A stretch of DNA of 64,000 nt from Lachnospiraceae bacterium (lineage in GTDB: Bacteria; Bacillota; Clostridia; Lachnospirales; Lachnospiraceae), in the NCBI GenBank assembly GCA_017416465.1, contig JAFQCK010000146.1, positions 62,001 through 126,000 of the forward strand, in the 5' to 3' direction. This document shows, in pieces, positions 1,133 to 41,014 of this stretch. Under the pieces are notes generated by a model, which did not search any database, was not told the origin of the DNA, and was given only the letters and a program-made list of their open reading frames with translations. Within the stretch, counting starts at the first letter, position 1, and the number at the start of each line of letters is the position of its first letter. Both the position numbers and the translations under genes were made by a program.

Positions 1133-2023
1133 TCACTCCTTTTCTTTTCTAATGGGTAAATACATATCTGTTACATACACCTGTTTTGCATATCCAAGCT
1201 CTTTTATTCTTTCTTTAGCCTTATATGCATCATCTTTATCTTTAAACAGACCAAATACTGTAGGTCCGCTACCACTCATAATCGCATTGAGAGCATTACA
1301 TTCTATCATAGTCTTTTTAATCACTTCTATCTCAGGATATTCTTTTGCCGTAACAGTCTCGAGTACATTTTCAAGCTTTGAGGCAATCATTTCCAAATCA
1401 TTTTTTTCTATAGCTTCAATCATTCCATCTATATCAGGATGTTTTATACCCTCATTTAACTTAAGATTTTCATAGACATATTTCGTAGAAACGCTTATAG
1501 GTGGCTTTGCAATAAGTACCGGACACTGAACCATATCCGGAAGTCTTTTTAACTTTTCACCAATACCTTCTGATAAAGCAGTTCCCCTCATCATACAATA
1601 CGGAACATCTGCACCTATTTTAACACCTCGTTCTTTAAGCTCATCAAGACTCAAACCTAAGTCAAACATCTTGTTAATTCCATACATTACACTTGCAGCA
1701 TCAGCACTTCCACCTGCCATTCCTGCCGCAACCGGAATAAACTTCTTAAGTTTAATTCTTACACCTTTAGTAATATTAAACTCATCAAACAACAGCTTTA
1801 CTGCCTTGTATACAATATTATTCTCATTAGTAGGCAGATAAAATATATTAGTTTCAATTTCAATCTTCCCCGTATCAGTCTTTACAATCTCAATACCATC
1901 GTAAATCCCCACTGTCTGCATAATCATTCTTACATCATGATAACCATCTTCACGCTTTCTGATTACATCTAATGCAAGATTGATTTTTCCATATGCTTTT
2001 AAATACATTTTGTCCTTTGCCAT
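1133..2023 (-). CDS. ispE: 4-diphosphocytidyl-2-C-methyl-D-erythritol kinase (IspE)
   Basis: This is a GHMP-family kinase of about 296 residues, the normal IspE length. It phosphorylates the 2-OH of CDP-ME in the MEP isoprenoid pathway. Visible motifs are AYGKINLALDV at the N-terminus, the ATP-binding VAAGMAGGSADAA loop near residue 100, and GADVPYCM and SGSGPTVFGLF further on. An upstream in-frame ATG exists at 2056, but the ATG at 2023 has an AGGAAAGG Shine-Dalgarno six bases upstream and gives the family-typical N-terminus, so it is preferred. Transcribed just ahead of the GntR regulator. Confidence 0.93.
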   Translation of the reverse strand: MAKDKMYLKAYGKINLALDVIRKREDGYHDVRMIMQTVGIYDGIEIVKTDTGKIEIETNIFYLPTNENNIVYKAVKLLFDEFNITKGVRIKLKKFIPVAAGMAGGSADAASVMYGINKMFDLGLSLDELKERGVKIGADVPYCMMRGTALSEGIGEKLKRLPDMVQCPVLIAKPPISVSTKYVYENLKLNEGIKHPDIDGMIEAIEKNDLEMIASKLENVLETVTAKEYPEIEVIKKTMIECNALNAIMSGSGPTVFGLFKDKDDAYKAKERIKELGYAKQVYVTDMYLPIRKEKE

Positions 2024-7083: not shown

Positions 7084-10000
7084 TTATTTAAGATATGTTT
7101 TTAATGAATTATAAACCATTTTCTGTCTTGATGTATATGTTCCTACCTGATTACCGGTATCAGACTGCATAGCTTCATAAATACTATCAAGTGTATATGG
7201 CTTTGTTGTCTTATTAAGAATACGTGTAACTGCTCCTGAGCCACCCTGATGTCTGATATTAGCACACATCATCTGTGCTGCAAGGTCTGTTACACCTAGC
7301 GCCTCTGCTTCTTTTATATATTTTGTCATCTGATCATCAATTAACTTGTCCTGACACTTTATTCCTTGTGGTGAACCAATGATAGCTTGAATACATTTTG
7401 CTTTTGCAGACGTTTTAGATAATTTATAAGTACTCCAATCTGCACTATCAAGATCTGCAGCTATTCCTGCTGTATCAAGTGCCTCAAACTCAGCGGGATA
7501 TGTTGCACGAATCAAATTCAACAATGTTTTTGCTTCTACTCCATACCACTGACCACCACCGATAGTAATAGCATGCTCAATATCAGAGTTTGTATATGCT
7601 TCTGTAAAATCTGAATAATCTACGTTTCCATATACCTGTCCACCAGTCTCAACTGCATAAATTATCTTACGAATAACTTCCATCTGTTCAGGTGTTGCTA
7701 CAGCTTCAGCTTCTTCTATCTTATTAATCTCAAATAACTGTCCTTCTCCAAAAGAAACTGTATTAATCTGAATATTAGTTAAATCTTCCGAACTGTTATC
7801 TGTTACATCAAGCACACATTCTGTTGAACATTTTGGACGTAGTACATATTTTCCTTCTTTAAGATAAATATTCCATTTCTGCCCATCTGTACCTCTGCCA
7901 GCTCCAATCTGCACGTTTGCTTTTGCTGTACCTACATCATCTGCTACCTCAAGACATTCTCCTGTCTTATTATTATAAAGTATATAACTTCCATCTGACT
8001 GTCTCTCAAATTTCCACATCTGTGCAGCTGCAGAACTTGGTGTATACAGAATAACATTTGTGCCCGATAACGAGAGATTTTTTCCAGATGATGCTGTTAT
8101 TTTTGCATAAAAATCTGTTCCAATATCCTGTATCTCAAGATTTTCAAAACAGTCGTCAGGTGCACTCTCATCAAGTGCACCTTCAACCCATTTTCCATCC
8201 GAACCTACGTAATATTTTCCATCATCAACCCACTCTGAAACCGCCATTGTTCCATCTGCTTTTACATAATAAACCCCTCTTATCCACTTAGATGTCTGAA
8301 CTACTCCTTCTTCTAAATAATACCAATATCCGTTTACCTGTATCCACTTAGTTTCTTTTACCCATTTTCCTTCGGCATCTACATAATACCTTCCACTATC
8401 AACTATTTCTGATATTGCCATTGTTCCATCTGCTTTTACATAGTATGTACTATTAATCCAACGTGATGTCTGCATTATTCCACTGGCATCAAAATAATAC
8501 CATTTATCATTTACTCGTGCCCATTTTGACTTCTGAACAGTTCCCGAAATCAGATAATACCAATTATCATTAACTTTTACCCATTTAGTTTCTTTTACCC
8601 ATTTTCCTTCAGCATCTACATAATACCTTCCATTATCAACTACTTCCAATACAGCCATTGTTCCATCTGCTTTCATATAGTATGTATTATCAATCCAACA
8701 AGATGTCTTCATTACACCACTTTCATCAAAATAGTACCATTTTCCATCAGATTGTACCCATCCTGTATTTTGAACTTCATTGATTGTAAACTTCTGAGCA
8801 GTTTTACTTGTTAATGTGTTTGTTTCAAGTTTTGTTTCATCTACTGAGCTATTATCAGGTACTTCAAGCACACAATTTTCCGAACAAGCTGAACGTAACA
8901 CATACTTAGATCCTGCTTTATATATATACCACTTTTGTGTTGACGAACCAGTATTAGCTCCTATGTGTACACTAGCACCAGGTTCACCACTTGTTACTTC
9001 AAGGCATTCCCCTGTCTCTCTGTTAATTATTTTATAACTTCCATCACCCTGACGTTCAAACTTCCATATTTGTGTTGGAGAAACACTTGATGTATATATA
9101 ATTACATCTTTATCTAATATTGACAAATTCTTTCCCGACGATGATGTTATGTTAGCATAAAAATCTGTGCCTAAATCTTCATGTGTATTCTCAGCTATGT
9201 AAGCTACTTTACTAATCTTAAACTGTTGTGCTTCACCAAATTCAAACGTATTAATCTGAATATTAGTTAAATCTTCTGAACTATTATCTTTCACATCAAG
9301 TACACATGTAGAAGAACAAGCCGGACGTAATGCATACTTTCCATCTAACTTATATATGAACCATCTTTGTGATGCTGAATCATCACTTGTATCAATTAAT
9401 ACATTTGTTCCTGCTGTCGAACCACCATCTGATGCCTCTAAACATTGACCTGTCTTCTGATTTATTATCTTATAGCTTCCATCTGACTGACGTTCAAACT
9501 TCCAATGCTGCGCTGCCGCTGTACTTGGAGTATACAATATTACATCAGTTCCTACTAAAGATAAGTTCTTTCCTGATGTGGCTGTTATCTTTGCATAAAA
9601 TCCTGTACCAACATCACTAGGTGTTAATGTCGCTATATTATAGGTTTTGTTGATAGTAAATACCTGCGCTGTTGTTCCATTATATGTATAATTTCCAACA
9701 TTAGCCAAAGTATCTGTTGAGCCATTCGCTACATCCATTACACATGCCGGTGAACAAGCTGAACGAATTATATACTCTCCTTCATTCTTCTCATATATGT
9801 TCCAACGTTGTGCTTTACTTCCATTATCTTCTGCAATATTTATATTTGCTCCTGAAGCAGTAGAAGCGCCTTCGACATTTAAACAATATCCCTGTTTAGT
9901 ATTAACTATCTTATATGTTCCATCTGACTGACGTTTAAAATTCCAAATCTGTGCCGGTGCTGTACTCGGTGTATATGTAATAACATTTGTATCCGAAAGT

Positions 10001-26775: not shown

Positions 26776-28530
26776 CTAATTCGTATATTTTATTATCGTA
26801 TTCCAAATCTCATCAGTTTCGTATCCTAATCTCCAAGCTGCAACGCCCGCTAAATTATATTCACTTATAAGCTTAAGCTTTGCTTCAATTGAAGCAGCAT
26901 CTTCAAGCCACACTCTTACCACATTTTCACCTGAAGTATATTCACCATAATTCTGTCCGACATTATCAACCCATACCGGTGTAACGCCCGCATTAGCCAA
27001 CTTTTTCTCTGCAACTCCCATTACATCTTCCGAAAACTCAACGACATTTCCTTCTGAATCCTCTGTCCATGTCCTTGTATAAAATGGAATTGCATTTATT
27101 ACTTTCTTTGAATCAACTATTTCTACAGTGTCGGCCACACCCTGCGTTACCCAAGGTAATGAAGCAACAGAGCCTACACCGGAATCAATCCCCCAGTGTT
27201 CATCATATCCCATTATGATAACATAATCAACAACTTCACCTAATGCTTTAGGATTATAATGTGAATTCGATGGTTCCGGAACTTTTAAATCTACCGATAA
27301 CACAATACCATTAATTCTACATTTTACAGACAGTTCTCTCATAAATTGAATATAATCATCCGCAATATCTGAGGAAATATACTCAAAATCAATGTTAATT
27401 CCATCTATTTCGTAATTAATAGCATCAGCCACCAACTGATTAATTATCTTCTCTCTCTTTGATGTATAAGTAAATACCTGTCTATTATCAGAATCCGGTG
27501 ACTGGTCATCCACCATCGCCCACACATCAAGTCCAAGCATATGTGCTCTTGTAACATAGTTTTCGCTTACTAAAGAAGTCATATTACCTTCATTATCAGA
27601 TAATCTGTACCATGTAGGAGACACAACATTAAGTCCTTTTGCAGGTGTTACCAAATCAACAAGCTTTTCATTTGCAGCTTTCGATGTAACCACATTCCAC
27701 GCCATACTAATCGTATCACTTCTTCCAATAGATGTATATTCAGGATATACAAAAGTACTTGTCAGTGTTTTCGTACTCTTCTTAGACAATGCATCTGTCT
27801 CTGCATAACCAAAGAAACCTGTCTCTGTTATAACCTTAGACCATTTTTTGCCTTTATCCAAAACCTCTACATTAGTATCTACTGCACACTTATGGATTAT
27901 ATCTGCTTTAATATTCTTATCTGTTCTGATAGCTACATCTTTTTTAAGAATAGCCGTATCAACAGTCCCACCCCACACATTTGTAATCATTAATCTGTTA
28001 GGTTTTTCATTAAATGTATATTCAATATCCGAATATTTTTTCACAAAATCTATAGCTATATAAGTATCATTCCCCTCAGCCTTTACTATCTGATACCCTT
28101 CAGTGTTTTTTATTTTAGAAACAAAGTAATCGTTACTTCCAACTGAGGTTTTAATTATATCTGTAGGCGTTGTATACAATAAATAATTTTCATTTTTATC
28201 CCAATAAAATTTATCGTTAATCTGCTCTTTTACAAACTCATATTTAAGATAAACTATTCCATCTATAACAACTGCTCTGTCTTTAATCAGTTGATTCTGC
28301 AAAATTATAGCAATCTGATTTTCCGGAGCTTCCTTTGCGTTATCAAAATTTATTCCGTTCTCATCTTCGGTATAACCATCCATTAATAAGAATAATTCTT
28401 TCATCTTTCTATCAGAGATGTGTTTTTTAGATGGTGTATTTTTATCTATTATATTTCCAACAACAATTACTACTATTGAAACTATAACAATAGCTATTGC
28501 AAAAACTATTGGCAAAGATTGTTTTTTCAA
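26776..28530 (-). CDS. Membrane-anchored GH18 family hydrolase with copper-amine-oxidase-like N-terminal and SH3 domains
   Basis: The 584-residue protein has a signal-anchor (7-28). A copper amine oxidase N-terminal-like region (about 75-185) precedes an SH3-like domain (about 190-255, TAILKKDVAIRTDKNIKADI, WSKVITETGFFGYAE). The GH18 barrel (260-584) has the catalytic DxxDxDxE-type motif DGINIDFEY near residue 380. The TIM-barrel strands VDYVIIMGYDEHW and LAGVAAWRLGYE match YaaH/YdhD-like spore or wall hydrolases. The start is TTG 28530 with AGGAGG eight bases upstream. Last gene of the cluster, five bases after the epimerase. It may trim a GlcNAc-type polymer made by the upstream genes. Confidence 0.8.
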   Translation of the reverse strand: MKKQSLPIVFAIAIVIVSIVVIVVGNIIDKNTPSKKHISDRKMKELFLLMDGYTEDENGINFDNAKEAPENQIAIILQNQLIKDRAVVIDGIVYLKYEFVKEQINDKFYWDKNENYLLYTTPTDIIKTSVGSNDYFVSKIKNTEGYQIVKAEGNDTYIAIDFVKKYSDIEYTFNEKPNRLMITNVWGGTVDTAILKKDVAIRTDKNIKADIIHKCAVDTNVEVLDKGKKWSKVITETGFFGYAETDALSKKSTKTLTSTFVYPEYTSIGRSDTISMAWNVVTSKAANEKLVDLVTPAKGLNVVSPTWYRLSDNEGNMTSLVSENYVTRAHMLGLDVWAMVDDQSPDSDNRQVFTYTSKREKIINQLVADAINYEIDGINIDFEYISSDIADDYIQFMRELSVKCRINGIVLSVDLKVPEPSNSHYNPKALGEVVDYVIIMGYDEHWGIDSGVGSVASLPWVTQGVADTVEIVDSKKVINAIPFYTRTWTEDSEGNVVEFSEDVMGVAEKKLANAGVTPVWVDNVGQNYGEYTSGENVVRVWLEDAASIEAKLKLISEYNLAGVAAWRLGYETDEIWNTIIKYTN

Positions 28531-28534
28531 TACT

Positions 28535-29638
28535 TCATCCTCCTTCCAGTATATCAGCTATACGCTTGCACGCAAACCCATCTCCATATGGATTTGATGC
28601 CTTACTCATTTTCTCATATTCTTCCGGATTTTCCAATAGCTTTTTGAATTCTTTATAAATTATTTCTTCTTCTGTTCCAACTAACTTAAGTGTTCCCGCC
28701 TCTATGCCTTCCGGTCTTTCCGTTGTATCACGCATTACAAGTACAGGTTTACCTAGTGAAGGTGCTTCTTCCTGTATTCCTCCACTATCAGTAAGTATCA
28801 AATGACATCTTGCAAGAAAATTGTGAAAATCCAACACCTCAAGAGGTTCAATTATATGTATTCTATCTTCATCACCAAGAATTTTATTTGCAGTTTCCCT
28901 AACCAAAGGATTCATATGTATCGGATAAATCGCTTTTACATCAGGATTTTCTTTAATTATTCTAAGTATAGCTTTAAACATATGCTCCATAGGCTCGCCT
29001 AAATTTTCTCTTCTGTGAGCTGTAATAAGAATCAATCTGCTATCCTTTGCCCACTCAAGCTCAGGATGAGTATACTCATCTCTAACAGTTGTCTTTAACG
29101 CATCTATTGCAGTATTACCTGTTACATAAATATCATCCGCATTCTTACCTTCTCTTAAAAGAGCATCCTTTGAATGATTAGTTGGTGCGAAATGATACTT
29201 TGCAACAATTCCAACTGCCTGACGATTAAATTCTTCCGGATATGGCGAATAAATATTATATGTTCTAAGTCCTGCTTCAACATGCCCAACCGGTATCTGC
29301 AAATAAAAACACGCAAGTGCAACTGTAAATGTTGTAGAAGTATCTCCATGAACCAATACCACATCAGGCTGTTCTTTCTCAAGAACCACTTTTACCTCCT
29401 CAAGAATATTTACCGTTACATCAAACAACGATTGTTGTGATTTCATTATATCCAAATCATACTCAGGAACTATTTCAAAAGCATTAAGAACCTGATCTAA
29501 CATTTGTCTGTGCTGACCTGATACACATACAATTGTCTGAATACCGTTTCTTCCCCTTAATTCTTTTACAAGCGGACACATTTTTATTGCTTCCGGCCTT
29601 GTACCAAACACCACCATAACTTTTTTCTTTTCGTTCAT
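28535..29638 (-). CDS. wecB: UDP-N-acetylglucosamine 2-epimerase, non-hydrolysing
   Basis: The 367-residue enzyme interconverts UDP-GlcNAc and UDP-ManNAc. Hallmarks are VMVVFGTRPEAIKMCPLV, SGQHRQMLDQVL, VLVHGDTSTTFTVALACFY, GHVEAGLRT, ITAHRRENLGE and LTDSGGIQEEAPSLGKPVL. UDP-ManNAc feeds teichoic-acid linkage units or exopolysaccharide. Here it sits between a beta-helix/LRR membrane protein and a GH18 enzyme in a glycan cluster, suggesting a ManNAc- or GlcNAc-containing product. Confidence 0.93.
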   Translation of the reverse strand: MNEKKKVMVVFGTRPEAIKMCPLVKELRGRNGIQTIVCVSGQHRQMLDQVLNAFEIVPEYDLDIMKSQQSLFDVTVNILEEVKVVLEKEQPDVVLVHGDTSTTFTVALACFYLQIPVGHVEAGLRTYNIYSPYPEEFNRQAVGIVAKYHFAPTNHSKDALLREGKNADDIYVTGNTAIDALKTTVRDEYTHPELEWAKDSRLILITAHRRENLGEPMEHMFKAILRIIKENPDVKAIYPIHMNPLVRETANKILGDEDRIHIIEPLEVLDFHNFLARCHLILTDSGGIQEEAPSLGKPVLVMRDTTERPEGIEAGTLKLVGTEEEIIYKEFKKLLENPEEYEKMSKASNPYGDGFACKRIADILEGG

Positions 29639-29659: not shown

Positions 29660-31222
29660 TTATACCTCTTCAATTTTATCACAATTTTGGAAAACACTTT
29701 CTCCATACTCTACTTCTACGCTCTTATCTAAAACATTAAATTTTCTAAAATTAATGTCATTTCTGAATACTGCATCTTTCAATTTTTCAACATAATCTAT
29801 ATTAAATTCCTCTAAGCTTTCACACTCTGAAAATGCATACTCGCCTATCTCTTTAAGTTTTGTCCCTTTATCAAATTCAACCTCTTTAAGCTTTTTACAC
29901 TTGTAAAAAGCATATTCACCTATTTTCTCTACAGTATTAGGTATATATACTGTTTCCAAATTCAAACAACCATAAAACATACTCGGTTCAATTGTTTTTG
30001 CACCTGATGGTATTACAACATATCTGATACTTACATTATCTCTGAATGCATAATAATCAATATCTTCAAATTCCTCTACGCTTTTAAAAGTAACACAACC
30101 ATCCTTTGTATAATTACAAACTACGCAATCATAATCATCTTGCGGTTTAACATCACTTTCGACTATCTTTACTTTTGCAAGCATATACACTTCTGCCGCA
30201 AAATCTTCTGCATCTACAATCTTTCCACCTTCTTCAGTTCCAATATACCCATAAACAGTAGTCCCGTTTGTAATCAACATACCAATTCTTGCTATTACAG
30301 ACTTAATCCTTCCAATCTTTCCAATTTGAACATCAGGTCCTATATAAGCATTCTCACCCGCGAATACATTCCCAAAAATCTTTACGCCCTTTTCAATAAT
30401 AATATTTCCATCCGTGAAAACATTACCTGTAATAACACTATTTGCCTTAATATGTATATCCTTATCAGACTTTATATCTCCACAAACCGTAGCCCCATAA
30501 CCAATTATAAGCTTGTGTTTTGTAATAATAGTCTTATTAATTGTAGTTCTTTCTTCAACTTCCTTTATATTTCTAAGAAGTTTCATATAAACGGGAGTTT
30601 CTCTGTTTATAACTATCTCTTCAGGCTCTTCATCTATAATTTCAACATATTTTCTTACTTCTATGATAGGAGAAAATAATCTTTTAAACGTACACCCATG
30701 TTCAACAACAAGTCTATCTCCCGAACTTGCACTAATACCAGCATCAGAAAACTCTTTGAGCACAAGTAATTTTTCCGCATCTACCCATCTGATTACATTG
30801 CTTTTTTCGCCAATAATCACATTTTTTTCGCCTGCAATTGCCCTTATTGAAGACTTATTTGCAATCTCAATGTTTTCTTTCGAATAAATTTCTTTCATAA
30901 ATTTCACTTTATTATCTATCTCTGCTTCTTTTTCAAATATACAAATCTTATCTATCGCCTTTACATTTTCATACTTTTCATCCCAAAATACAATTTCTTC
31001 AATCTTTGATAGAATAACATCTCGCGGATTAGGATTATCTATAAGAGCATTTGTAAGCTTCTTTTTAAAAGATTTTGAAAAATATCTTGGATCTTTCACA
31101 TTATTATTCATTACAACAAGTGAGGTTACATCCTTACTTTCAATTTTTACTCCAAGTGAAAGAAGAAACGGAAATAATATTAAAATGATAAATGTTATGA
31201 TAAATACTATTAACATTTCCAT
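29660..31222 (-). CDS. Membrane protein with hexapeptide-type beta-helix and BspA-like leucine-rich repeats
   Basis: The 520-residue protein has one N-terminal membrane helix (1-22). A parallel beta-helix region (about 235-320) has repeating hydrophobic/Gly turns such as HKLIIGYGATVCGDI, IKANSVITGNVFTDG and GVKIFGNVFAGENAYIG, as in bactofilins and polymer-forming proteins. BspA-type LRR_5 repeats end it (about 385-515: SMFYGCLNLETVYIPNTVEK, IGEYAFYKCKKLKEVEF). The combination is unusual. No signal cleavage site is seen, so the bulk could face either side. It lies between the GT2 and epimerase genes. A scaffold for the synthase complex is a guess. Confidence 0.65.
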   Translation of the reverse strand: MEMLIVFIITFIILILFPFLLSLGVKIESKDVTSLVVMNNNVKDPRYFSKSFKKKLTNALIDNPNPRDVILSKIEEIVFWDEKYENVKAIDKICIFEKEAEIDNKVKFMKEIYSKENIEIANKSSIRAIAGEKNVIIGEKSNVIRWVDAEKLLVLKEFSDAGISASSGDRLVVEHGCTFKRLFSPIIEVRKYVEIIDEEPEEIVINRETPVYMKLLRNIKEVEERTTINKTIITKHKLIIGYGATVCGDIKSDKDIHIKANSVITGNVFTDGNIIIEKGVKIFGNVFAGENAYIGPDVQIGKIGRIKSVIARIGMLITNGTTVYGYIGTEEGGKIVDAEDFAAEVYMLAKVKIVESDVKPQDDYDCVVCNYTKDGCVTFKSVEEFEDIDYYAFRDNVSIRYVVIPSGAKTIEPSMFYGCLNLETVYIPNTVEKIGEYAFYKCKKLKEVEFDKGTKLKEIGEYAFSECESLEEFNIDYVEKLKDAVFRNDINFRKFNVLDKSVEVEYGESVFQNCDKIEEV

Positions 31223-31280: not shown

Positions 31281-32570
31281 TTAATTTGATTTACTTTCTT
31301 CCGACTCTGTTTCTTCCTTATTAAACCTTACCGTCTTCGCCCATTTAACATTTCTGTGAGTAAATCTGTCAATTATTGCATCAATAAATCCTAAAGAAAT
31401 ATACCACATATAAAAGAAGAAACTAAAGCAAAGCTGTGGCAATGCAAGTATTTCATCCTCTATTCCATCTATGAATGCCGCAATACCAATTTCAAAAAAA
31501 GGCGCAAAATTGCCCCATGTATTATACATACCAAGCAATATAATAACAATCCATCCGGTAAAAATATTTATCTCTCCTAAGAAAAACAACAGTAAGCAAT
31601 CTATCTGAGCTAATCCCAGCACAAACGGAACTGCATATATAAATAATAATAACATCCCATCTATTTTTCCTTTAAAACTGATGTTTTTAGAAAATAGGAA
31701 TCTGAAGAAATATTTAAACAATACTTCATTATGTCCTCTAGACCATCTACGAATCTGTCTCCCTCGTACATCCCATGTTTCAGGAGACTCTTCGTAACAC
31801 TCTGCACTATTATCATATACAACTGTCCAACCTTCAGAATATAATCTGTAAGTAAGTTCTGTATCCTCTGCCAAAACTTTCGAATCAAATCCTCCTGTTG
31901 CAAGCATTATACTTTTTCTAAATCCACCTACAGTTCCACCATATTGCGGTAATAATTTCAAATTATATCTTGCTTGTTGGTCAATCTGATACCCACCAGA
32001 CCTTTCAAGATTAAGTAGAACTGTAAGAAGATTTCTTCTTGCATTAATAGGAATAACTCTTCCCATTACTGCACCAACCTTAGGATCTTTAAAAGCAGAC
32101 GCAAGTTTTTTAATAAGGTTTTTAGACGGTCTGTAATCCGCATCAAATACTATAATAACCTCGCCGGTAGCTACTTTTAATGCATCATTCAAACCAACCG
32201 TTTTTCCTCTTTCACCCTCTTCTAATCTATGCAAAGGTTTAATAAAAGGATATTTTCTATGATATTCATCAACAATCTCCGCCGTCTTATCATCCGAATG
32301 ATCATTTATCGGAATAATCTCAAATTTATCTTTATCATAATCGCTTTCCAGCAGTGATGTAATAACATTCTTAACAACACTTTCTTCGTTGTGCATAGGA
32401 ATCATTATTGTTACTCTAGGTAAATCACTGTCATAAATGTCTCTATATGATACTCTCTGCTTGCAAAACAATCTGTTATAAGTGAATATAAAATGTCTTA
32501 TAGTATAAATAACCATCAAAACAATTGTAAAAATAAAGTAACCTTGAAGAATTTTTATGACCACTTCCAT
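31281..32570 (-). CDS. Processive glycosyltransferase family 2 (exopolysaccharide synthase)
   Basis: The 429-residue membrane enzyme has one N-terminal membrane helix (9-30), a cytosolic GT-A domain, and three to four C-terminal helices. The processive beta-synthase residues are present: DHSDD (near 90), DAD at 143-145, EDTEL (ED at 235-236) and QIRRW at 272-276, the Q-x-x-R-W motif of cellulose, hyaluronan and poly-GlcNAc synthases. It lacks a PilZ domain. It likely polymerises and exports a beta-linked glycan. It overlaps the upstream membrane protein gene by 16 bases. Confidence 0.85.
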   Translation of the reverse strand: MEVVIKILQGYFIFTIVLMVIYTIRHFIFTYNRLFCKQRVSYRDIYDSDLPRVTIMIPMHNEESVVKNVITSLLESDYDKDKFEIIPINDHSDDKTAEIVDEYHRKYPFIKPLHRLEEGERGKTVGLNDALKVATGEVIIVFDADYRPSKNLIKKLASAFKDPKVGAVMGRVIPINARRNLLTVLLNLERSGGYQIDQQARYNLKLLPQYGGTVGGFRKSIMLATGGFDSKVLAEDTELTYRLYSEGWTVVYDNSAECYEESPETWDVRGRQIRRWSRGHNEVLFKYFFRFLFSKNISFKGKIDGMLLLFIYAVPFVLGLAQIDCLLLFFLGEINIFTGWIVIILLGMYNTWGNFAPFFEIGIAAFIDGIEDEILALPQLCFSFFFYMWYISLGFIDAIIDRFTHRNVKWAKTVRFNKEETESEESKSN

Positions 32571-33370
32571 AACCCACCTCCAGCTTTTGTACTAAACTTT
32601 TCACTTGCCTTCTTCATATATAAAGCATAAAAGCCAACCATTATCATAAAATCAAACAAAAATCCAAAACTAAAATATAGCACTGCCATAAATAAATATG
32701 AACACTTTGCCAAGAACGTAAGATATAATACATATCTTACAAACCCAAACACAACTTCCATTATTATCAATGCTGTAAAAGTAAATATTCTATAAAATAT
32801 CATCTTGGTAATTAAAGATGTTGTAAGCCAATATGTAACCATTATTAATAACCATACAATTATCTGATGCTTAAGATACAATTCAGAATATCCATTTAAA
32901 TCATATGCAAATCTTTTACTAAAAAAAACAAAATACAACGAAGAAAATGCCTGAATATACAATCCCATTGTCAAAAAAATCAACAACGGCTTATTCTTCG
33001 TTTTTATCAAAGAAAACAATATAATGAAAATCACCGAAACTATTAAACTAATCAGTGTCATTGTCAAACTAGGATACTTCCCTTCTAAACCAACATAGTA
33101 TACATCCCCAAATTTAGGTAGATAATCAATTTTTAATATACTTATCTCCTGTCCCGTAAAAATTCGTAAAAAATACTTAGCACATTTTGCTATTAACCAT
33201 GACAATTTTTCATAATTCAACAGATACAAAATCGACACAGGAACTATCATAATAAGAAGTTGAAAAAAATATATAAATCTTCCACTACTTAAATATTTGT
33301 AATCTCTCGAATAATTTATATTTTTCTTTTCCTGAGGAACATATGATTTCATTAAATTCCCATTTCTCAT
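32555..33370 (-). CDS. Polytopic membrane protein of the polysaccharide cluster
   Basis: This 271-residue protein has about seven membrane helices and is not recognised. A short basic N-terminal tail (1-35) precedes the first helix. One extracytoplasmic loop of about 40 residues (LKIDYLPKFGDVYYVGLEG) lies between helices 1 and 2. The C-terminus ends GGGLWKWS. The start is ATG 33370 (AAAGGA ten bases upstream) rather than the TTG at 33400. It is the first gene after the promoter and overlaps the synthase gene, so it probably acts with it, perhaps as an export or assembly subunit. Confidence 0.65.
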   Translation of the reverse strand: MRNGNLMKSYVPQEKKNINYSRDYKYLSSGRFIYFFQLLIMIVPVSILYLLNYEKLSWLIAKCAKYFLRIFTGQEISILKIDYLPKFGDVYYVGLEGKYPSLTMTLISLIVSVIFIILFSLIKTKNKPLLIFLTMGLYIQAFSSLYFVFFSKRFAYDLNGYSELYLKHQIIVWLLIMVTYWLTTSLITKMIFYRIFTFTALIIMEVVFGFVRYVLYLTFLAKCSYLFMAVLYFSFGFLFDFMIMVGFYALYMKKASEKFSTKAGGGLWKWS

Positions 33371-33417
33371 ATTTATATTAATCCTTTCATAAATTGACAA
33401 AATATTACTTTTTTATA

Positions 33418-33446
33418 ATTCTACTTTATTAAATTTTTATTGTCAA
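33418..33446 (-). promoter_or_regulatory. SigA-type promoter of the polysaccharide operon
   Basis: Perfect TTGACA, 17-base spacer, TAGAAT on the minus strand, 48 bases upstream of ATG 33370. The operon would run from here to the terminator at 26727. Confidence 0.8.
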
Positions 33447-33464: not shown

Positions 33465-33493
33465 AAAAGTGTCGTACATAACGACACTTTTTT
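33465..33493 (-). terminator. Terminator of the secreted six-hairpin-like protein gene
   Basis: Stem AAAAGTGTCGT with ACGACACTTTT, about 15 bases past the stop codon. It is followed by TTTTG on the minus strand. It separates this gene from the promoter of the next operon. Confidence 0.75.
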
Positions 33494-33507: not shown

Positions 33508-35100
33508 TTATTTTTTTAAGTTATCAATCATTGTATCAAGTCCCATGAGTACCATTGCTGATTCAGATGAATATAATGGATATAGTCTTCCACCATCTAT
33601 TATTTCTTTATATCTATTCATATATGCATCAAACCTTGAAACATCATTCATCTTAGCACCAAGCAATGCAAAGCTTCCCCAGCAAAACACATCAACACCT
33701 TCTGAAATATAATCCATATTTTGCCAATCCCATGAATTGCATAAGCCTTCATATAAAACCTTAGCATTATCACTGTTTGAATCAATCACATCATAAATAA
33801 CCGGAAACATCTGTGCAGTTGCATTCGGATAAAAATTATTCCAAGAAAAATCATTATGTTCTTCATACTTCGTACTAAGCGTTGGTGCATAATGATCACC
33901 CTTCCACCAATGTTTATTAAAGTTGGCATCAAAAAATTCCACTGTTTTGTTAATTTTTTCGAACATTTCCGAATCATATATAATGTTAGAATAAATATAT
34001 TTTGCTGATACCAATCCTGCATACACCTCCGAATTATCCATTAAATATCTAATCTTATAATCCGGTTTTGCATACGAATAACCATTAGATGATAAATTAG
34101 CAAAGATTACATTTGTTATATCTTTTATAGTTTCCTTATGTTCAACAATATACTGTGTATCACCATATACCTGTGCATAATCAGCTAAAACTTTGATAAA
34201 TAATGCACTATATGAATCCGTTGAATCATAAGTCTTTTTTGTGGTTTCACTAATAACAATTCCATTTTTTACAACCGCAGTATAATCATAAATAGTTCCT
34301 GCTAAGCCATTATAATCTTCACTTGAACTATTAATATGTGCAAAATGCCAATCCATATATTTTTTAATCTTATTCTTAGCATCAACACTATTATCATAAT
34401 TAATAAGTGCAATTGCTACAATCTCACTAAAATACGGATTAACTCTTACAGTTCCATTAAATTCATTATAAAATGCAAATGCTCCGTTTGACATCTGCTG
34501 GCTCCAAAGCCAATCTGCCTCTTCTTTAGCCAACTCTTGATAATATTCAATTTTTTCTTTCACTTCATCATTAACTTCCACCTGAACTCCACTCATCACT
34601 TCCGTTGTTTCTTCTTCTGTGTTCTCATAATTACTTTCCGTTTCTATAACCGTATTTTTTTTACTATCAATCTCTTCGTTATCTGATGCGGTTATACTTT
34701 CCTCTATTATTTCATTTTGTACTATATTTTCACTCGTTGTTTCATTAATACTATCATCATTAACTTCATTCATAGTATTAGTACTTGTAATTTCCTCACT
34801 TACATATTCTGTACTTACTTCTCTTTCTACCACAGTATTTGTTGTATTTTCTTCTACATTTATTTCTATAACATCTTCTTCAACAATTTCTGTTTCTATT
34901 TCCACAGTATCTGTTACTTCATAAGATGACTCTTCCTCATCATGTCTATACAAATTACCTATATCTAAAAACTTTTTCAAAAAATTCTTATAATATGCCG
35001 AATATTTTGTAGATGCTATTGCGGTTTCCGGTTCATTAACAAAAATCCCCGCCACAAATATTACTATAACCAGCAAAATACTGATTTTTTTCTTCATCAT
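33508..35100 (-). CDS. Secreted protein with (alpha/alpha) barrel, six-hairpin-glycosidase-like, under c-di-GMP riboswitch
   Basis: The 530-residue exported protein has a signal peptide (about 1-30, ending TAIAS). A disordered Glu/Thr/Ser-rich linker spans about 55-185 (many ETE, TTE and NET repeats). The C-terminal part (190-530) is helical with recurring aromatic loops: EEADWLWSQQMSNGAFAFY, YFSEIVAIALI, GLAGTIYDY, DSTDSYSALFIKVLADYA, HWWKGDHYAPTL and YPNATAQMFPVI. This looks like an alpha/alpha toroid of glycosidases or lyases, though I cannot name a GH/PL family. Three ATGs follow GGAGG; 35100 has the best spacing (seven). A c-di-GMP-I aptamer precedes the gene, and a polysaccharide synthase operon follows. 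Confidence 0.7.
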   Translation of the reverse strand: MMKKKISILLVIVIFVAGIFVNEPETAIASTKYSAYYKNFLKKFLDIGNLYRHDEEESSYEVTDTVEIETEIVEEDVIEINVEENTTNTVVEREVSTEYVSEEITSTNTMNEVNDDSINETTSENIVQNEIIEESITASDNEEIDSKKNTVIETESNYENTEEETTEVMSGVQVEVNDEVKEKIEYYQELAKEEADWLWSQQMSNGAFAFYNEFNGTVRVNPYFSEIVAIALINYDNSVDAKNKIKKYMDWHFAHINSSSEDYNGLAGTIYDYTAVVKNGIVISETTKKTYDSTDSYSALFIKVLADYAQVYGDTQYIVEHKETIKDITNVIFANLSSNGYSYAKPDYKIRYLMDNSEVYAGLVSAKYIYSNIIYDSEMFEKINKTVEFFDANFNKHWWKGDHYAPTLSTKYEEHNDFSWNNFYPNATAQMFPVIYDVIDSNSDNAKVLYEGLCNSWDWQNMDYISEGVDVFCWGSFALLGAKMNDVSRFDAYMNRYKEIIDGGRLYPLYSSESAMVLMGLDTMIDNLKK

Positions 35101-35190
35101 CATATTTCCTCCGTTCTTACACTTACATAAGACCTCGAACAATCACTCTTATGTTTTTAATTAGACAATTTTTCTACATATCTATTAAAA

Positions 35191-35226
35191 ATAAAAAATG
35201 CCATTAAGGACTTTTCCTTAACAGCT
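35191..35226 (-). terminator. Intrinsic terminator of the c-di-GMP riboswitch
   Basis: On the minus strand GCTGTTAAGGA pairs with TCCTTAATGGC around an AAAG loop, followed by ATTTTTTATTTTT. It lies between the aptamer and the start codon, as expected for a transcription-terminating expression platform. Confidence 0.8.
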
Positions 35227-35240
35227 ATCACAAGGTTGTT

Positions 35241-35311
35241 TGCAACTGGCTGCCATTTTAAAGGCCCTCTAGCTTTGCGTCACAGACTTTCATCTGTTTT
35301 GCCCTTTTATA
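35241..35311 (-). promoter_or_regulatory. Cyclic di-GMP-I (GEMM) riboswitch aptamer
   Basis: Read on the minus strand, the conserved blocks occur in order: AAAGGGCAAA, a hairpin CAGAtGAAAgTCTG closed by a GNRA-type loop, GACGCAAAGCTA, AGGGCCT, then GGCAGCCAGTTGC at the 3' end. This is the RF01051-type consensus, including the GNRA tetraloop of P2 and the GGCCT tetraloop receptor. Promoter and terminator flank it at the expected positions. It controls the secreted six-hairpin-like gene. Whether ligand turns expression on or off cannot be read by eye. Confidence 0.88.
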
Positions 35312-35329
35312 TTTATTTTGTTTTGGCTA

Positions 35330-35358
35330 TTCTATCATATTTTTTATGAAAATTCAAT
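35330..35358 (-). promoter_or_regulatory. Promoter of the riboswitch transcript
   Basis: TTGAAT, 17-base spacer, TAGAAT on the minus strand, placing the transcription start about 12 bases before the aptamer. Confidence 0.75.
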
Positions 35359-35538: not shown

Positions 35539-36327
35539 CTATTTTTCTACTCGTCCCTTACTGAACTGACTTATGTGTTCTTCCAGAACCATTCTCTTAC
35601 TAACCATATCCTCTGTAAACACTTTATCAATCAGATTAGGGTCCCAGTTTCCTAATTCAATTACGCTGAAACTTGCCGGATAATTAGATATTGCATTTTT
35701 TTGATAGTCCTTAACATATAAAATTGCATATATTTTTGCCCCTGCGTATACACTCTTATCAATATTGGCACTCGATAATTTTAAAATTTCTTCCTCATTC
35801 ACATAAATAAAAATCTTATCATCTATCCTTGCCTTAACTTTCTTACCGGATATTAAAACATAATCCTCACCATTCGGAAATGATATTCTTATGTCTATTA
35901 CACTTCCATCCAAAATCTCAGAATGTAATTCAACATTAGACAACATATGTAACCTTAAATCATCCGGTATTCTATCTTCATTAACCAACATATCCATATT
36001 AACCAGCACCCCTTTACTTACATTAACCTTTAACTCCTTGCCAATAACACTCTCTTTTTTTATTGTCTTTACAGATTCTTCTGCATATAAATTAACTTCA
36101 ACTAAATCCGCTTCGGATATTATATCCCCTTTTTTTAAATCTTTGCCAATAGCGTAAAACTTTCTTTCTGAATATATATTTGTTTTTTCACTATTTTTCG
36201 CATATTCACTCTCTAACAATTCATATTTTCCATTCAATATAAATAAGCCTATAACAGGAGGTATAACTCCCACTAAAATCCCTATTAATAATGTAAATAT
36301 AAATTGCTTCTTTCTATGCCAAATAAT
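35539..36327 (-). CDS. SAF-domain membrane protein (CpaB/RcpC-like), apparent ATT start
   Basis: The protein has 262 residues if started at ATT 36327. The N-terminal membrane helix is FIFTLLIGILVGVIPPVIGL. A SAF-type domain follows (about 55-120, FYAIGKDLKKGDIISEADLV, KGVLVNMDML), then a beta-rich C-terminal region, as in CpaB/FlgA-like proteins. The first standard start is GTG 36273, which would cut off half of the membrane helix. The strong GGGGAGGG site, overlapping the end of the upstream gene, is eight bases from ATT 36327. The frame is also in phase with the upstream gene, separated only by its TAA. A pilus or secretion role is inferred from SAF similarity only. Confidence 0.6.
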   Translation of the reverse strand: MIWHRKKQFIFTLLIGILVGVIPPVIGLFILNGKYELLESEYAKNSEKTNIYSERKFYAIGKDLKKGDIISEADLVEVNLYAEESVKTIKKESVIGKELKVNVSKGVLVNMDMLVNEDRIPDDLRLHMLSNVELHSEILDGSVIDIRISFPNGEDYVLISGKKVKARIDDKIFIYVNEEEILKLSSANIDKSVYAGAKIYAILYVKDYQKNAISNYPASFSVIELGNWDPNLIDKVFTEDMVSKRMVLEEHISQFSKGRVEK

Positions 36328-36330
36328 AAC

Positions 36331-36948
36331 TTATCCCTCCCCAATTGCTTTTTCTATCATATCTAAAATTCTTCTTTCAACCTTAAAAGGTGTTTCAACA
36401 TAAGGAATCTTATATATCTTTTCTCCTAATTCATTCTCAATCTCCTTAGCTTCAGTAACCGAACCGAATGAATACAAAATTCTCCACTTGGAATTTTTAT
36501 ATTTAGAAAAATAATTTTCGTACTCTTCCTTAAAATGAACATTTCTCCATAAAGTTGAAGAAATTATCAGATATCTAAAATCACAGAGTCCTGCTTCTAT
36601 TTTATACTTCATATAGCTGTTACCGACATCAATAATTATACAATCATAGTCCTTCAAAAAGATTTCTTCAAGAATATCCTTAGTTGCAGACGGATAATAT
36701 GTAACTTTATCCTTGACAAATGCCTTCTCTAGATTAATATCCCCTAATCCTTCACCTAAATTCATATAATCATTATCTTTATTAAAATCAACTAAAGCAA
36801 CTTTTTGTCTTAATAAATTAGCCCTATAGTTAGCTAAAAGAATACTAAAATGTGTAGCTCCAACTCTATGTTCAATTCCTGCCACAAATATCTTGTCGCA
36901 TTTCTTTAATTTTTGTTTCTTATACATTGCGGTCTTTTTCAAAACCAT
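36331..36948 (-). CDS. MinD/ParA-like (TadZ/CpaE-like) protein with variant P-loop
   Basis: The 205-residue protein has the SIMIBI fold. VAGIEHRVGATHFSILLANY lies where MinD/ParA proteins have KGGVGKTT, so both the signature Lys and the P-loop Lys are absent. DYDCIIIDVGNSYM aligns with Walker B and switch II. Its P-loop segment resembles the C-terminal part of the kinase fusion encoded just upstream (G-x4-x-G-x-THFSI in both). It may bind nucleotide weakly or serve as a partner. Middle gene of the kinase/P-loop/SAF trio. Confidence 0.6.
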   Translation of the reverse strand: MVLKKTAMYKKQKLKKCDKIFVAGIEHRVGATHFSILLANYRANLLRQKVALVDFNKDNDYMNLGEGLGDINLEKAFVKDKVTYYPSATKDILEEIFLKDYDCIIIDVGNSYMKYKIEAGLCDFRYLIISSTLWRNVHFKEEYENYFSKYKNSKWRILYSFGSVTEAKEIENELGEKIYKIPYVETPFKVERRILDMIEKAIGEG

Positions 36949-36973
36949 AAATTCACCCCATATTTCATCAAGA

Positions 36974-38284
36974 TTATCTATTACATCCCTGATTTTTCAA
37001 AATAAGATTCAATATTTTCTTATAAAAAATTCTTGAATCATTATTAAGTTTCAACGGATTAGCAAAATATGGCATATTAACTGCCTGACGTTCAGTCTTT
37101 CTGTCAAATCTTTTAAATCCTGCTTCATCCGAAAAATTCACGACATATATAACATTCATTTCACTACTTTGTTCATACATTAATTCACCAAAACTCTTTA
37201 TATCTGTAATCACCACAATCACAACGCCATCTCTAATATCGTCCCCTCTATACACTCCACCATCATAAATATGCATGCCCTCAAACTCACTTATATGCTC
37301 ATATATAAATCCACCATAATAGGGCCAAATCTCACATTTTTCATAATTAATTACACCTCTATGTTTAATACTATTTTTATCCAAATATTCTGTAAAACCT
37401 CTTCCATTCTCAGTCTCTATATAAACAGACTTTTCTTTTAATTCAGACAAAAATCTTGTAAAACCAATTGAAAAATGTGTAACCCCCGCATACTCTCTAC
37501 ATCCATACACATAAACCTTAATTCCTTTAGCTGATGTATCATTAACTGCATTATCACTATCTTCATATAAAATACATTGAGATAAATACTTTTTTACTAT
37601 GTCAGGATTAGCAATTCTATTAAAGTTATTACTTTCCATACACCCTGAAACAATAACGTTAATTAATTCCTTATCTTCTTCGAAAATATTCTTATGATAC
37701 TGATAAACCATCTGTATAAGTACGCCAATACCATATACATCAGTGGTAATGTCAGGTTCCATTAGATTAAGATGTTCCGGTGTAACATTGCTAACAGAAG
37801 CTCTGGCATCATTATCAAACTTATTACCTAATATTCTACAATTACCAAAATCAATCAAATATACTTTTCCTTCTTTTATCAATATATTCTCTGACTTTAA
37901 ATCATTGTATATTACGGGATTAGATTGCAACGAATGAATACCGGTAATAATATCACATATATCCACTATACATTTGATTAATTCAGCCTTAGTCCTTCGA
38001 ATATTTGTAATATATTCCATAAAAGTCTCTCCTTGTATATATTCTTCAATAATATACAAATACTTATCATCTTCTTCTACATCATATATTATCGGAATCC
38101 CTTTTATTACAGCATCCCTTAGTATGTTAATCTCGACAAAATAACTGTTAACATTAATTGGACTCTTCTCAATTCTTTTAACAACTCTTAGACTATCCAA
38201 CCCAATATGTCTTACAAGATATACTACCGATGTTCCCCCTCTTGCCAGTTCCCTTATTAACTCATATCTGTTATCAATAAAAAT
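36974..38284 (-). CDS. Ser/Thr protein kinase fused to a MinD-like domain, apparent ATT start
   Basis: The protein has 436 residues if initiated at ATT 38284. The frame there gives NRYELIRELARGGTSVVYLV, the glycine-rich loop, and RVVKRI with the ATP-binding Lys. Starting at the first standard codon, TTG 38200, would delete the loop. AAAGGAG lies seven to eight bases before the ATT. The catalytic loop is YNDLKSENI (about residue 128; HRD replaced by YND) and the metal site is IDFGN (about 145). After about 240 residues a second domain contains VYGCREYAGVTHFSIGF, a P-loop variant lacking the Lys. No membrane segment. First gene of the trio. Confidence 0.7.
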   Translation of the reverse strand: MFIDNRYELIRELARGGTSVVYLVRHIGLDSLRVVKRIEKSPINVNSYFVEINILRDAVIKGIPIIYDVEEDDKYLYIIEEYIQGETFMEYITNIRRTKAELIKCIVDICDIITGIHSLQSNPVIYNDLKSENILIKEGKVYLIDFGNCRILGNKFDNDARASVSNVTPEHLNLMEPDITTDVYGIGVLIQMVYQYHKNIFEEDKELINVIVSGCMESNNFNRIANPDIVKKYLSQCILYEDSDNAVNDTSAKGIKVYVYGCREYAGVTHFSIGFTRFLSELKEKSVYIETENGRGFTEYLDKNSIKHRGVINYEKCEIWPYYGGFIYEHISEFEGMHIYDGGVYRGDDIRDGVVIVVITDIKSFGELMYEQSSEMNVIYVVNFSDEAGFKRFDRKTERQAVNMPYFANPLKLNNDSRIFYKKILNLILKNQGCNR

Positions 38285-39631: not shown

Positions 39632-40918
39632 CTATGTCCACTCATTCTTTAACCAGTTATTTCTATTAATTAACCAGCTTCTTAAAAATTCAACATTTTC
39701 TTCATATGTACTCAACGGAATTTTTGAATTAGGTCCATATCTATAACTAACATCCCAAATAGTAAAATTATGTTTAAAATCCTCACCATAGATATTTATA
39801 ATATTATCTATCCTATTAACTCCAAGCTCGTTATCAGTTGTAAGATTCTCAATTAATGGCTGAATTTCGAAAAATCTATCAATCACTTTTTCTCTAAATT
39901 CAGGTATTTGCCAAAGGTACATAAACCATAATTCCTGGCAATAGAAACCGGCATAATTTTCTTCATGTTTTTCTATATTATTATATTTTTCATAATAATA
40001 GTAATCTACATTTCCTGCCGACAAATCATAATCCCATACCGGCCCCGCATATATCTTTCCTTCTTTTATGTAAAAATATGTTGAACTTGTAGCAAAATCC
40101 ACATCCTTAAACAATTCATTAAATACATAATAATCAACAAACGAATCAATATCAGCATATTCTTCTACGGCATCAATACCATACGCTATTGAATTTTCAA
40201 AATCATTAACAAACTTACTTATATTCTCTATCTCCTTATCCTTCCCCTCTTCTATCGTAAATATCAGCCCTGTATGCGTTGTAATTTTCATCTTATCTGA
40301 ATATTCATAATTAGGCTGAAGTTGTAATAAACAATCTCCTTCCGATAAATCTAAATCCACTTTATCTTTTCCTTCCGAAACCGGTTGACAAATTAAATAT
40401 AAACCTTGATCCTCTCCATTATAAAATAATTCTATATATTCGCATTTCGGTGTATAATCTAACCCCATATTCCTCGCAAAATCCATAGCAAGCATATTTC
40501 TCATTAATGTAGGATCAAATAGATTTGCAATCAAACACCATTTTTTAGAATTACCCATTCCTAAAATATTTTTTTTATCAGAAAATTTTATATTGTACGG
40601 AATTTTTGTACCGTATGCCGTAGTATGTCCTCTAACTTTAATCTTTCCATTTACAACCTCTATGTCTGAATACTGTTTACTTTCATCAACTATTTTTATA
40701 GAAGCTTCAACATATTCATCTCTATTCGGTATCAGCTTAGTATCAATATAAATCTTCGGAACAGCTATACCTTCATGATTATAATTTTTTTCTGCTATCG
40801 TAAATGGCACTTTCGTACTTTCTTCCATACTTTCACTTGTATTATCTTTTTTATAGTTTCCACAGGATATCAAAAAAATCATTATAATTGTTAATAACAC
40901 ATATAATTTTTTTCTCAT
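39632..40918 (-). CDS. CotH-family kinase-like lipoprotein
   Basis: The 428-residue lipoprotein has lipobox FLISC with Cys19. The CotH domain shows KIKVRGHTTAYGTKIPYNI, GMGNSKKWCLIANLFDPTLM, RNMLAMDFARNMGLDYTP, YIELFYNGEDQGLYLICQPV and the metal-site motif GPVWDYDLSAGN near residue 310. CotH proteins are atypical kinases; the spore type phosphorylates coat proteins. The lipobox suggests surface rather than coat location. The start is ATG 40918 (AAAGGAG eleven bases upstream) since ATG 40942 has no site. Confidence 0.8.
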   Translation of the reverse strand: MRKKLYVLLTIIMIFLISCGNYKKDNTSESMEESTKVPFTIAEKNYNHEGIAVPKIYIDTKLIPNRDEYVEASIKIVDESKQYSDIEVVNGKIKVRGHTTAYGTKIPYNIKFSDKKNILGMGNSKKWCLIANLFDPTLMRNMLAMDFARNMGLDYTPKCEYIELFYNGEDQGLYLICQPVSEGKDKVDLDLSEGDCLLQLQPNYEYSDKMKITTHTGLIFTIEEGKDKEIENISKFVNDFENSIAYGIDAVEEYADIDSFVDYYVFNELFKDVDFATSSTYFYIKEGKIYAGPVWDYDLSAGNVDYYYYEKYNNIEKHEENYAGFYCQELWFMYLWQIPEFREKVIDRFFEIQPLIENLTTDNELGVNRIDNIINIYGEDFKHNFTIWDVSYRYGPNSKIPLSTYEENVEFLRSWLINRNNWLKNEWT

Positions 40919-41014
40919 TAAAGGTCTTTCTCCTTTATACATCTTTTGATTTCGTATATTATAACAGAAACTTTACAACAAAAAAAGTTAAAATATATGC
41001 ATTTATTTTAGAAC

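Follow-up and report, generated by a model that had tools for sequence, protein, structure and literature searches.

A c-di-GMP-I riboswitch predicted to repress an exported, putative six-hairpin glycosidase beside an exopolysaccharide operon in a Lachnospiraceae bacterium

Control of exopolysaccharide production by cyclic di-GMP (c-di-GMP) is usually described as activation of the synthase, through PilZ domains or PelD. In the Gram-positive Pel locus (pelDEADAFG), a separately transcribed hydrolase, BCE_5582, influences biofilm in Bacillus, and some of these loci carry accessory genes for CotH, polyphosphate polymerase and DUF4956 proteins (PMC7112168; this and most other articles cited are represented by excerpts). 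PssZ of Listeria monocytogenes, an (alpha/alpha)6-barrel enzyme of glycoside hydrolase (GH) family GH126 that was called GH8 by its discoverers, degrades an N-acetylmannosamine-galactose exopolysaccharide (PMC7479077). At the RNA level, the class I c-di-GMP switches of Clostridioides difficile are OFF switches (PMC11477304), and c-di-GMP riboswitches are on record before chitinase genes in Aeromonas (PMC6366702), so that glycosidase control by a riboswitch has precedent. Here, a stretch of 64,000 nucleotides from a Lachnospiraceae bacterium (GCA_017416465.1, contig JAFQCK010000146.1, positions 62,001 to 126,000; hereafter the window) is analyzed, in which a c-di-GMP-I aptamer precedes the gene of an exported protein, next to an exopolysaccharide (EPS) operon. 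On balance, we lean towards a transcriptional OFF switch on an exported six-hairpin-type glycosidase that would act on the exopolysaccharide of the adjacent operon.

The window RNA is a real RF01051-type aptamer. It was matched by Infernal at 35313-35238 on the minus strand over model positions 1-87 of 87, scoring 63.2 bits with the gathering threshold at 35 (E 5.3e-10), and it is the sole riboswitch above threshold in the window. The GGCAAA, GAAA tetraloop and GACGCAAA blocks are all present in this aptamer and in four orthologous leaders. The first G of GGCAAA is presumably the ligand-reading base in the c-di-GMP form, and the aptamer is predicted to bind c-di-GMP. These results bear out the initial annotation, which had recognized the GEMM-I consensus blocks, had proposed a covariance-model search with RF01051 and had placed an intrinsic terminator downstream: the terminator hairpin has 11 pairs followed by a U tract (Table 1), and terminator-like sites number 2 in 3.1 kb, compared with 0.4 +/- 0.7 in shuffled sequences. 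The good promoter that was also claimed is well placed, but such matches are equally frequent in shuffles (18 in the region versus 20.3), and TTGAAT-17-TAGAAT alone is not beyond chance. The range given in that annotation, 33508..35358, takes in promoter, leader and gene.

The same leader stands before the orthologous gene in five species, represented by the window and by loci L007/L018, L015, L016 and L017 (L and G numbers are our labels for loci and genomes). When 144 relatives were searched for homologues, the protein turned up in three genomes, one of them that of the window; the homologue of G022 (Lachnospira sp. UBA2821), with 57% identity, has its own RF01051 match just upstream. A scan of 84,980 species genomes yielded 51 homologue loci, in which L068, L096 (G194), L066 (G022) and L069 (G331), being the same DNA as L015, L018 and L048, which are records named as Lachnospiraceae, are counted once. 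An Rfam scan at the gathering score, which took in 10 homologue loci, placed an RF01051 aptamer before the gene in L015, L016 and L017, and found none at the homologues of L008 and L009 and none before the gene in L019, L020, L023 and L027. Model R1, which was built from nine aptamers and comprises only 8 base pairs, matched before the gene in 4 of the 51 loci (L015-L018) and found no leader aptamer in the remaining 47, negatives that are weak for distant forms and that include four loci without upstream DNA (L023, L030, L049 and L065); its two matches in L055 lie more than 3 kb from the homologue and were excluded from the counts. A search among 195 genomes related to G194 gave 2 genomes, both already known, and no further leader. 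The window and the four leader-bearing relatives form one clade, with support 100/99, in a tree of 43 rows, which, like the alignment, includes 42 of the 51 loci and is without L029, L031, L032, L042, L049, L052, L057, L062 and L065 (fragments, frameshift, near copy, masked bases, or superfluous). The 5′ strand of the terminator, GCUGUUAAGG, is identical in all five leaders and the 3′ strand varies in 6 of 10 columns, and 49 of 50 cells still pair in our own alignment of the two strands. Because the leader is kept in L018 and L016, whose fetched flanks are without EPS genes, it goes with the gene rather than with the EPS operon.

In the proposed mechanism, the 5′ strand of the terminator (GCUGUUA) would pair at low c-di-GMP with UGGCAGC of the aptamer, RNA polymerase would read through, and the enzyme would be secreted and would trim or release the matrix. 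At high c-di-GMP, the ligand would lock the aptamer, the terminator would form and the enzyme would not be made; because the operon probably has a separate promoter, polymer is proposed to accumulate under this condition. The antiterminator pairing is a prediction from folding. When the transcript is ended at the terminator 5′ strand, this strand pairs with UGGCAGC in the minimum-free-energy (MFE) structure of four of the five leaders, with the pair probabilities of Table 1 in the window. The aptamer and the antiterminator are mutually exclusive, so that the ligand should favor the terminator, and the riboswitch is likely to be an OFF switch through which c-di-GMP represses the downstream gene, a sign of control that the initial annotation had left open. 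When a 9-nt block of the aptamer was tested for pairing with the terminator strand against shuffles, the p values for the five leaders were 0.004, 0.002, 0.036, 0.082 and 0.012.

The idea that the compact aptamer form is peculiar to the present gene was rejected: with 2 mismatches at most, its motif was located at 39 sites, spread over 27 of the family's 397 genomes and preceding many genes. A survey of these 39 sites together with L016 and L017 found a terminator 5-22 nt downstream of all 41 compact aptamers; this regularity is counted in favor of an OFF switch, and many of the sites have one and the same terminator in common. The 9-nt block prefers the 5′ over the 3′ strand of the terminator in 33 of the 41 sites by energy and in 37 by run length, and the shuffle test falls below p 0.05 in 9 of the 41, of which four are leaders of this gene, out of five, and the remaining 5 are among the 36 other sites. 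The genes after compact aptamers in L098-L134 include, by eye, pilin-like, substrate-binding and sensor-like open reading frames (ORFs). In L121 (G315 C163), the minus-strand ORF after the compact aptamer resembles by eye a contractile tail sheath protein; if this is true, a contractile particle would be under c-di-GMP control.

Several observations weigh against repression by this route. The 9-nt block was picked after the fold had been seen; with the whole aptamer as the target, 126-159 of 1000 shuffles form duplexes as good as those of the 10-nt terminator strand, and in L016 the number is 702 of 1000. In 8 of the 41 compact sites, the block pairs better with the 3′ strand, only 5 of the 36 sites away from this gene reach p < 0.05, and the predicted partner of the terminator strand in L015 lies mostly outside UGGCAGC. 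The full-length MFE structure contains the terminator in all five leaders, which means that antitermination must be kinetic, and the two states differ by 0.5 kcal/mol in the window and by 5-11 kcal/mol in the other leaders. The opposite sign, in which c-di-GMP would raise read-through and biofilm growth would need the enzyme for matrix maturation, is nevertheless considered unlikely. BcsZ-type hydrolases trim, release or remodel nascent polymer, and G022 has a second homologue inside the orthologous synthase operon, after WecB, in an arrangement like that of maturation hydrolases and with no aptamer found there. Bc2 of Bacillus thuringiensis is a class I switch that is ON by read-through, and a review cautions against extrapolation (both in the excerpts of PMC6366702). 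Read-through in response to the ligand would, however, need the aptamer to block a terminator that it does not overlap, for which no route is evident; the competing pairing uses an aptamer strand, as expected of an OFF switch, and the C. difficile class I switches are OFF (PMC11477304).

The protein encoded behind the leader was claimed in the initial annotation to be exported and to have a long linker and an alpha/alpha barrel. The first two points are upheld by an export signal recognized by eye, MMKKKISILLVIVIFVAGIFVNEPETAIA, and by an acidic Glu/Thr-rich linker at residues 51-175 (78% E/T/S/V/N/D). The barrel would lie in the C-terminal catalytic-like domain, approximately residues 175-530 (34578-33511): some relatives match six-hairpin models weakly, but the window protein itself is without a family match. 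Among 43 aligned members at E ≤ 0.1, Pfam matched MGH1-like GH in 5 (best 1.2e-4), trehalase in 3 (best 0.0029), GH94 in 2 (best 2e-4) and Bac_rhamnosid6H in 2 (best 0.017), with single chance-like matches to TPR, prenyltransferase toroid and others, and NCBIfam matched oligosaccharide amylase in 6 (best 9.9e-4) and archaeal trehalase in 5 (best 5.8e-4). A profile of the 43 rows matched the alpha-L-rhamnosidase 8iwd best among PDB chains (E 0.0037), followed by a designed TPR protein (0.021), a trehalase and two more rhamnosidases. D292, S293, E358, N356, Y352, W251 and Y424 are invariant in 43 of 43 members, D486 in 42 of 42 and D295 in 42 of 43; D292, E358, D486 and D295 are candidate catalytic carboxylates. 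A first guess of GH126/GH8, the family of PssZ, was abandoned, as none of the 9 PDB chains at E ≤ 10 is so named and no Pfam GH8 match was found among the 43 members at E ≤ 0.1.

Beyond adjacency, a connection of this enzyme with the EPS operon is strongly suggested by their distribution, in keeping with the initial annotation. Of the family's 397 genomes, 5 match the family 2 glycosyltransferase (GT2) of the operon at E ≤ 1e-100, and the same five (G000, G022, G194, G231 and G331) have the catalytic domain of the enzyme family, after 33 of the 38 genomes in the enzyme tally had been dropped for matches ending at or before profile position 182 of 468, in the linker/Ig-like part. The chance of identical five-genome sets is 1 in 8e10 if the genomes are independent, and five genera are represented. 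All five leader-bearing genomes carry the GT2, with 62-100% identity, and G004, outside the 397, has both the enzyme family and the GT2. The GT2 also lies within the fetched flank in 8 of the 51 loci, from Bacillota, Acidobacteriota, Nitrospirota and Eremiobacterota. In L017, the order is leader, enzyme, membrane protein TM281, GT2, bactofilin-LRR (leucine-rich repeat) protein, two ORFs and WecB; the two ORFs resemble, by eye, the MBOAT and AlgX/DHHW genes of L011.

The substrate is perhaps the polymer of the adjacent operon, and the WecB gene would point to a ManNAc-containing one. A competing assignment, improbable in our view, is that of a nutritional enzyme that would cut plant or host polysaccharide and whose gene would lie beside the EPS operon by accident. 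Several near homologues are, by their record titles, from the gut of goats, sheep and yaks, and most of the searched relatives outside the family, for example Paenibacillus and Fermentithermobacillaceae, are without this GT2: the search took in 33 genomes, namely G004 and the genomes belonging to 32 of the 51 homologue loci (that of L048 is already among the five, and the genomes of 13 loci lie outside the search), and the GT2 was found at 1e-40 in only 10 of them, 7 with at least 48% identity. Also against the link of enzyme and GT2 are the facts that the homologues in G231 and G331 are distant (23-26% identity), and that the Lachnospiraceae genome of L029, in which a frameshifted homologue lies beside wecB, is without the GT2 at 1e-40. 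A nutritional role would, however, leave the shared presence in five of 397 genomes to coincidence, together with the homologues located beside wecB or within the synthase operon in several genomes. A comparably low probability is assigned to an alpha-helical toroid protein that is no hydrolase and instead serves as a polysaccharide lyase, an epimerase or a binding scaffold. Alpha-toroid lyases exist; the window protein has no Pfam or NCBIfam match at E ≤ 1 and, in the PDB, a single chance match (E 1.1), one member weakly matches the prenyltransferase alpha-alpha toroid and others TPR, and the second PDB match of the family profile is the designed TPR protein. The invariant acidic residues argue for a hydrolase instead, and the Pfam matches below E 0.005 are all to MGH1-like GH, GH94 and trehalase. 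A putative divergent six-hairpin glycosidase, with presumed hydrolase activity, is the most economical reading of the window protein, even though the profile matches behind it are weak and come from some relatives.

The enzyme alone is probably under the riboswitch, because a separate promoter-like site precedes the EPS operon and because, where the operon is elsewhere, as in L018 and L016, the leader is still found at the gene. Control of the operon by the switch was set aside in view of such sites in both the window and L017 (TTGACA-17-TAGTAT at 9767-9795), with the caveat that the polymerase may pass the inverted repeat that separates the gene from the operon and that promoter-like matches are frequent there by chance. 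The repeat, AAAAGTGTCGT...ACGACACTTTT, is absent from the output of the terminator scan. The GT2 scores 136.1 bits with the PgaC/IcaA model TIGR03937, short of the curated cut-off of 422.3. An XrtG (exosortase G) system was considered on account of a sub-threshold match of the GT2 to TIGR03111 (89.5 bits versus 364), and was rejected; the membrane protein has no match. TM281 is a multi-pass protein that keeps its place beside the GT2 in lineages as far from Lachnospiraceae as Nitrospirota and Eremiobacterota, and is perhaps a synthase partner. The WecB/MnaA product would supply UDP-ManNAc. CotH-like genes recur near EPS modules of other genomes, and L022 has CotH, VTC and DUF4956 genes. Just upstream of the riboswitch, at 35539-38200 of the window, are genes for an SAF-domain protein (2.3e-6), a 205-residue protein (AAA_26 at 0.29, not significant) and a serine/threonine-kinase-like protein (2.9e-22), which by eye are perhaps the remains of a Flp-type pilus locus.

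Table 1. Features of the riboswitch, the enzyme gene and the neighboring genes in the window.
Feature	Position	Strand	Basis
Candidate sigma-70 promoter TTGAAT-17-TAGAAT, TG before -10	35329..35357	-	Promoter scan; position fits
c-di-GMP-I (GEMM-I) riboswitch aptamer, compact subtype	35238..35313	-	RF01051, 63.2 bits
Aptamer strand UGGCAGC, predicted antiterminator partner of terminator 5′ strand	35249..35255	-	Pair probabilities 0.69-0.91
Intrinsic terminator hairpin and U tract; 5′ strand GCUGUUAAGG	35200..35225	-	Terminator scan, leader alignment, folding
Ribosome-binding site GGAGG	35108..35112	-	Sequence
Exported six-hairpin-like putative glycosidase, 530 residues (ATG at 35100, stop at 33508)	33508..35100	-	ORF, homologue alignment, tree
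Inverted repeat AAAAGTGTCGT...ACGACACTTTT, candidate terminator between gene and EPS operon	33465..33491		Sequence
Promoter-like site TTGACA-17-TAGAAT (11 of 12) for EPS operon	33418..33446	-	Promoter scan
Membrane protein TM281, no Pfam/NCBIfam match	32555..33400	-	Family searches; start probably ATG 33370 (by eye)
GT2 processive-type glycosyltransferase, PgaC/IcaA-like, below curated cut-off	31281..32570	-	Family searches
Bactofilin-like protein with BspA-type LRR	29660..31222	-	LRR_5 1.5e-27; Bactofilin 4.7e-4, below its cut-off
UDP-GlcNAc 2-epimerase (WecB/MnaA)	28535..29638	-	TIGR00236 523 bits, over cut-off
GH18 protein with SH3-like domain, last gene of run	26776..28530	-	PF00704 4.1e-24
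CotH-like protein	39632..40942	-	PF08757 2.2e-43

The genome assembly (3.7 Mb in 172 contigs, 89.5% complete and 5.0% contaminated) has 22 GGDEF matches, 21 of them over the cut-off, and 11 EAL matches, and thus has the machinery to vary c-di-GMP. The statement in the initial annotation that the GT2 has no PilZ domain is true of the neighboring GT2, but the genome itself holds three PilZ matches, so that c-di-GMP may also control the synthase in trans. Five c-di-GMP-I aptamers in the genome are over threshold, and the last aptamer block reads GGCGCAAA in three of the four others. These four are followed, by eye, by three look-alike lipoproteins and a 419-residue secreted protein (L003 1649-2434, L004 1651-2436, L002 378-1196 and L013 4849-6108). 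All five switches of the genome seem to control exported proteins. In L002, the interval between the c-di-GMP-I aptamer and its lipoprotein gene carries, on the opposite strand, a TwoAYGGAY RNA match of 69.6 bits (1261-1426, plus strand).

The evidence points to control of the matrix in Lachnospiraceae, a gut family, by RNA repression of a polymer-removing enzyme, and hints at a way for such bacteria to retain or shed their biofilm. For further work, it offers as target a protein family that has invariant carboxylates, along with a short leader and a candidate substrate operon, and the joint occurrence of enzyme and synthase provides a handle on the polysaccharide system. More tentatively, the gene may found an unnamed glycoside hydrolase family that, in this lineage, is devoted to a polysaccharide of synthase-dependent type not described before (TM281, GT2, bactofilin-like protein, WecB and CotH), which recurs across Bacillota, Acidobacteriota, Nitrospirota and Eremiobacterota, with one Lachnospiraceae clade silencing the degrading enzyme by a riboswitch rather than activating the synthase. 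In the open-licence literature, no paper was found that joins c-di-GMP riboswitches with a glycoside hydrolase or glycosidase, and a search combining c-di-GMP, riboswitch, Lachnospiraceae and polysaccharide returned only a C. difficile review (PMC8470499). The synthase module was likewise not found in the open-licence literature searched and is not shown in the excerpts of PMC8250860 and PMC7112168.

Compared with described systems, the protein resembles six-hairpin families (MGH1-like GH, trehalase, GH94, oligosaccharide amylase and GH78-type rhamnosidase) in the weak matches of the C-terminal domain of some relatives, and differs from them in that the best E values are 1.2e-4 in Pfam, with no match of the window protein, and 0.0037 in the PDB. 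Like PssZ, it would be a glycosidase directed against an exopolysaccharide with N-acetylmannosamine, the window operon also having a UDP-GlcNAc 2-epimerase gene; unlike PssZ (as excerpted in PMC7479077), it has a family profile that matches no chain named GH126 or GH8, and its gene is predicted to be riboswitch-controlled. The Gram-positive Pel locus, in the excerpts of PMC7112168, is similar in combining a synthase-dependent EPS with a separate hydrolase gene, and its CotH, VTC and DUF4956 genes recur in the related module L022; in contrast, the window synthase is a GT2 with TM281 and a bactofilin-like protein, whereas the Pel hydrolase is PelA-like and c-di-GMP acts there through PelD. The closest likeness in regulation is to the C. 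difficile OFF switches (Cd1, the zmpI/PPEP-1 leader), which, in the excerpts of PMC6366702 and PMC11477304, also combine an aptamer over the gathering score, a terminator and an exported enzyme that presumably acts on the cell's own surface material. The window differs from them in its target, a putative polysaccharide-cutting enzyme and not an adhesin protease, in its compact aptamer and in having a sign that is predicted. By this analogy, the window system may best be read as a polysaccharide counterpart of C. difficile PPEP-1.

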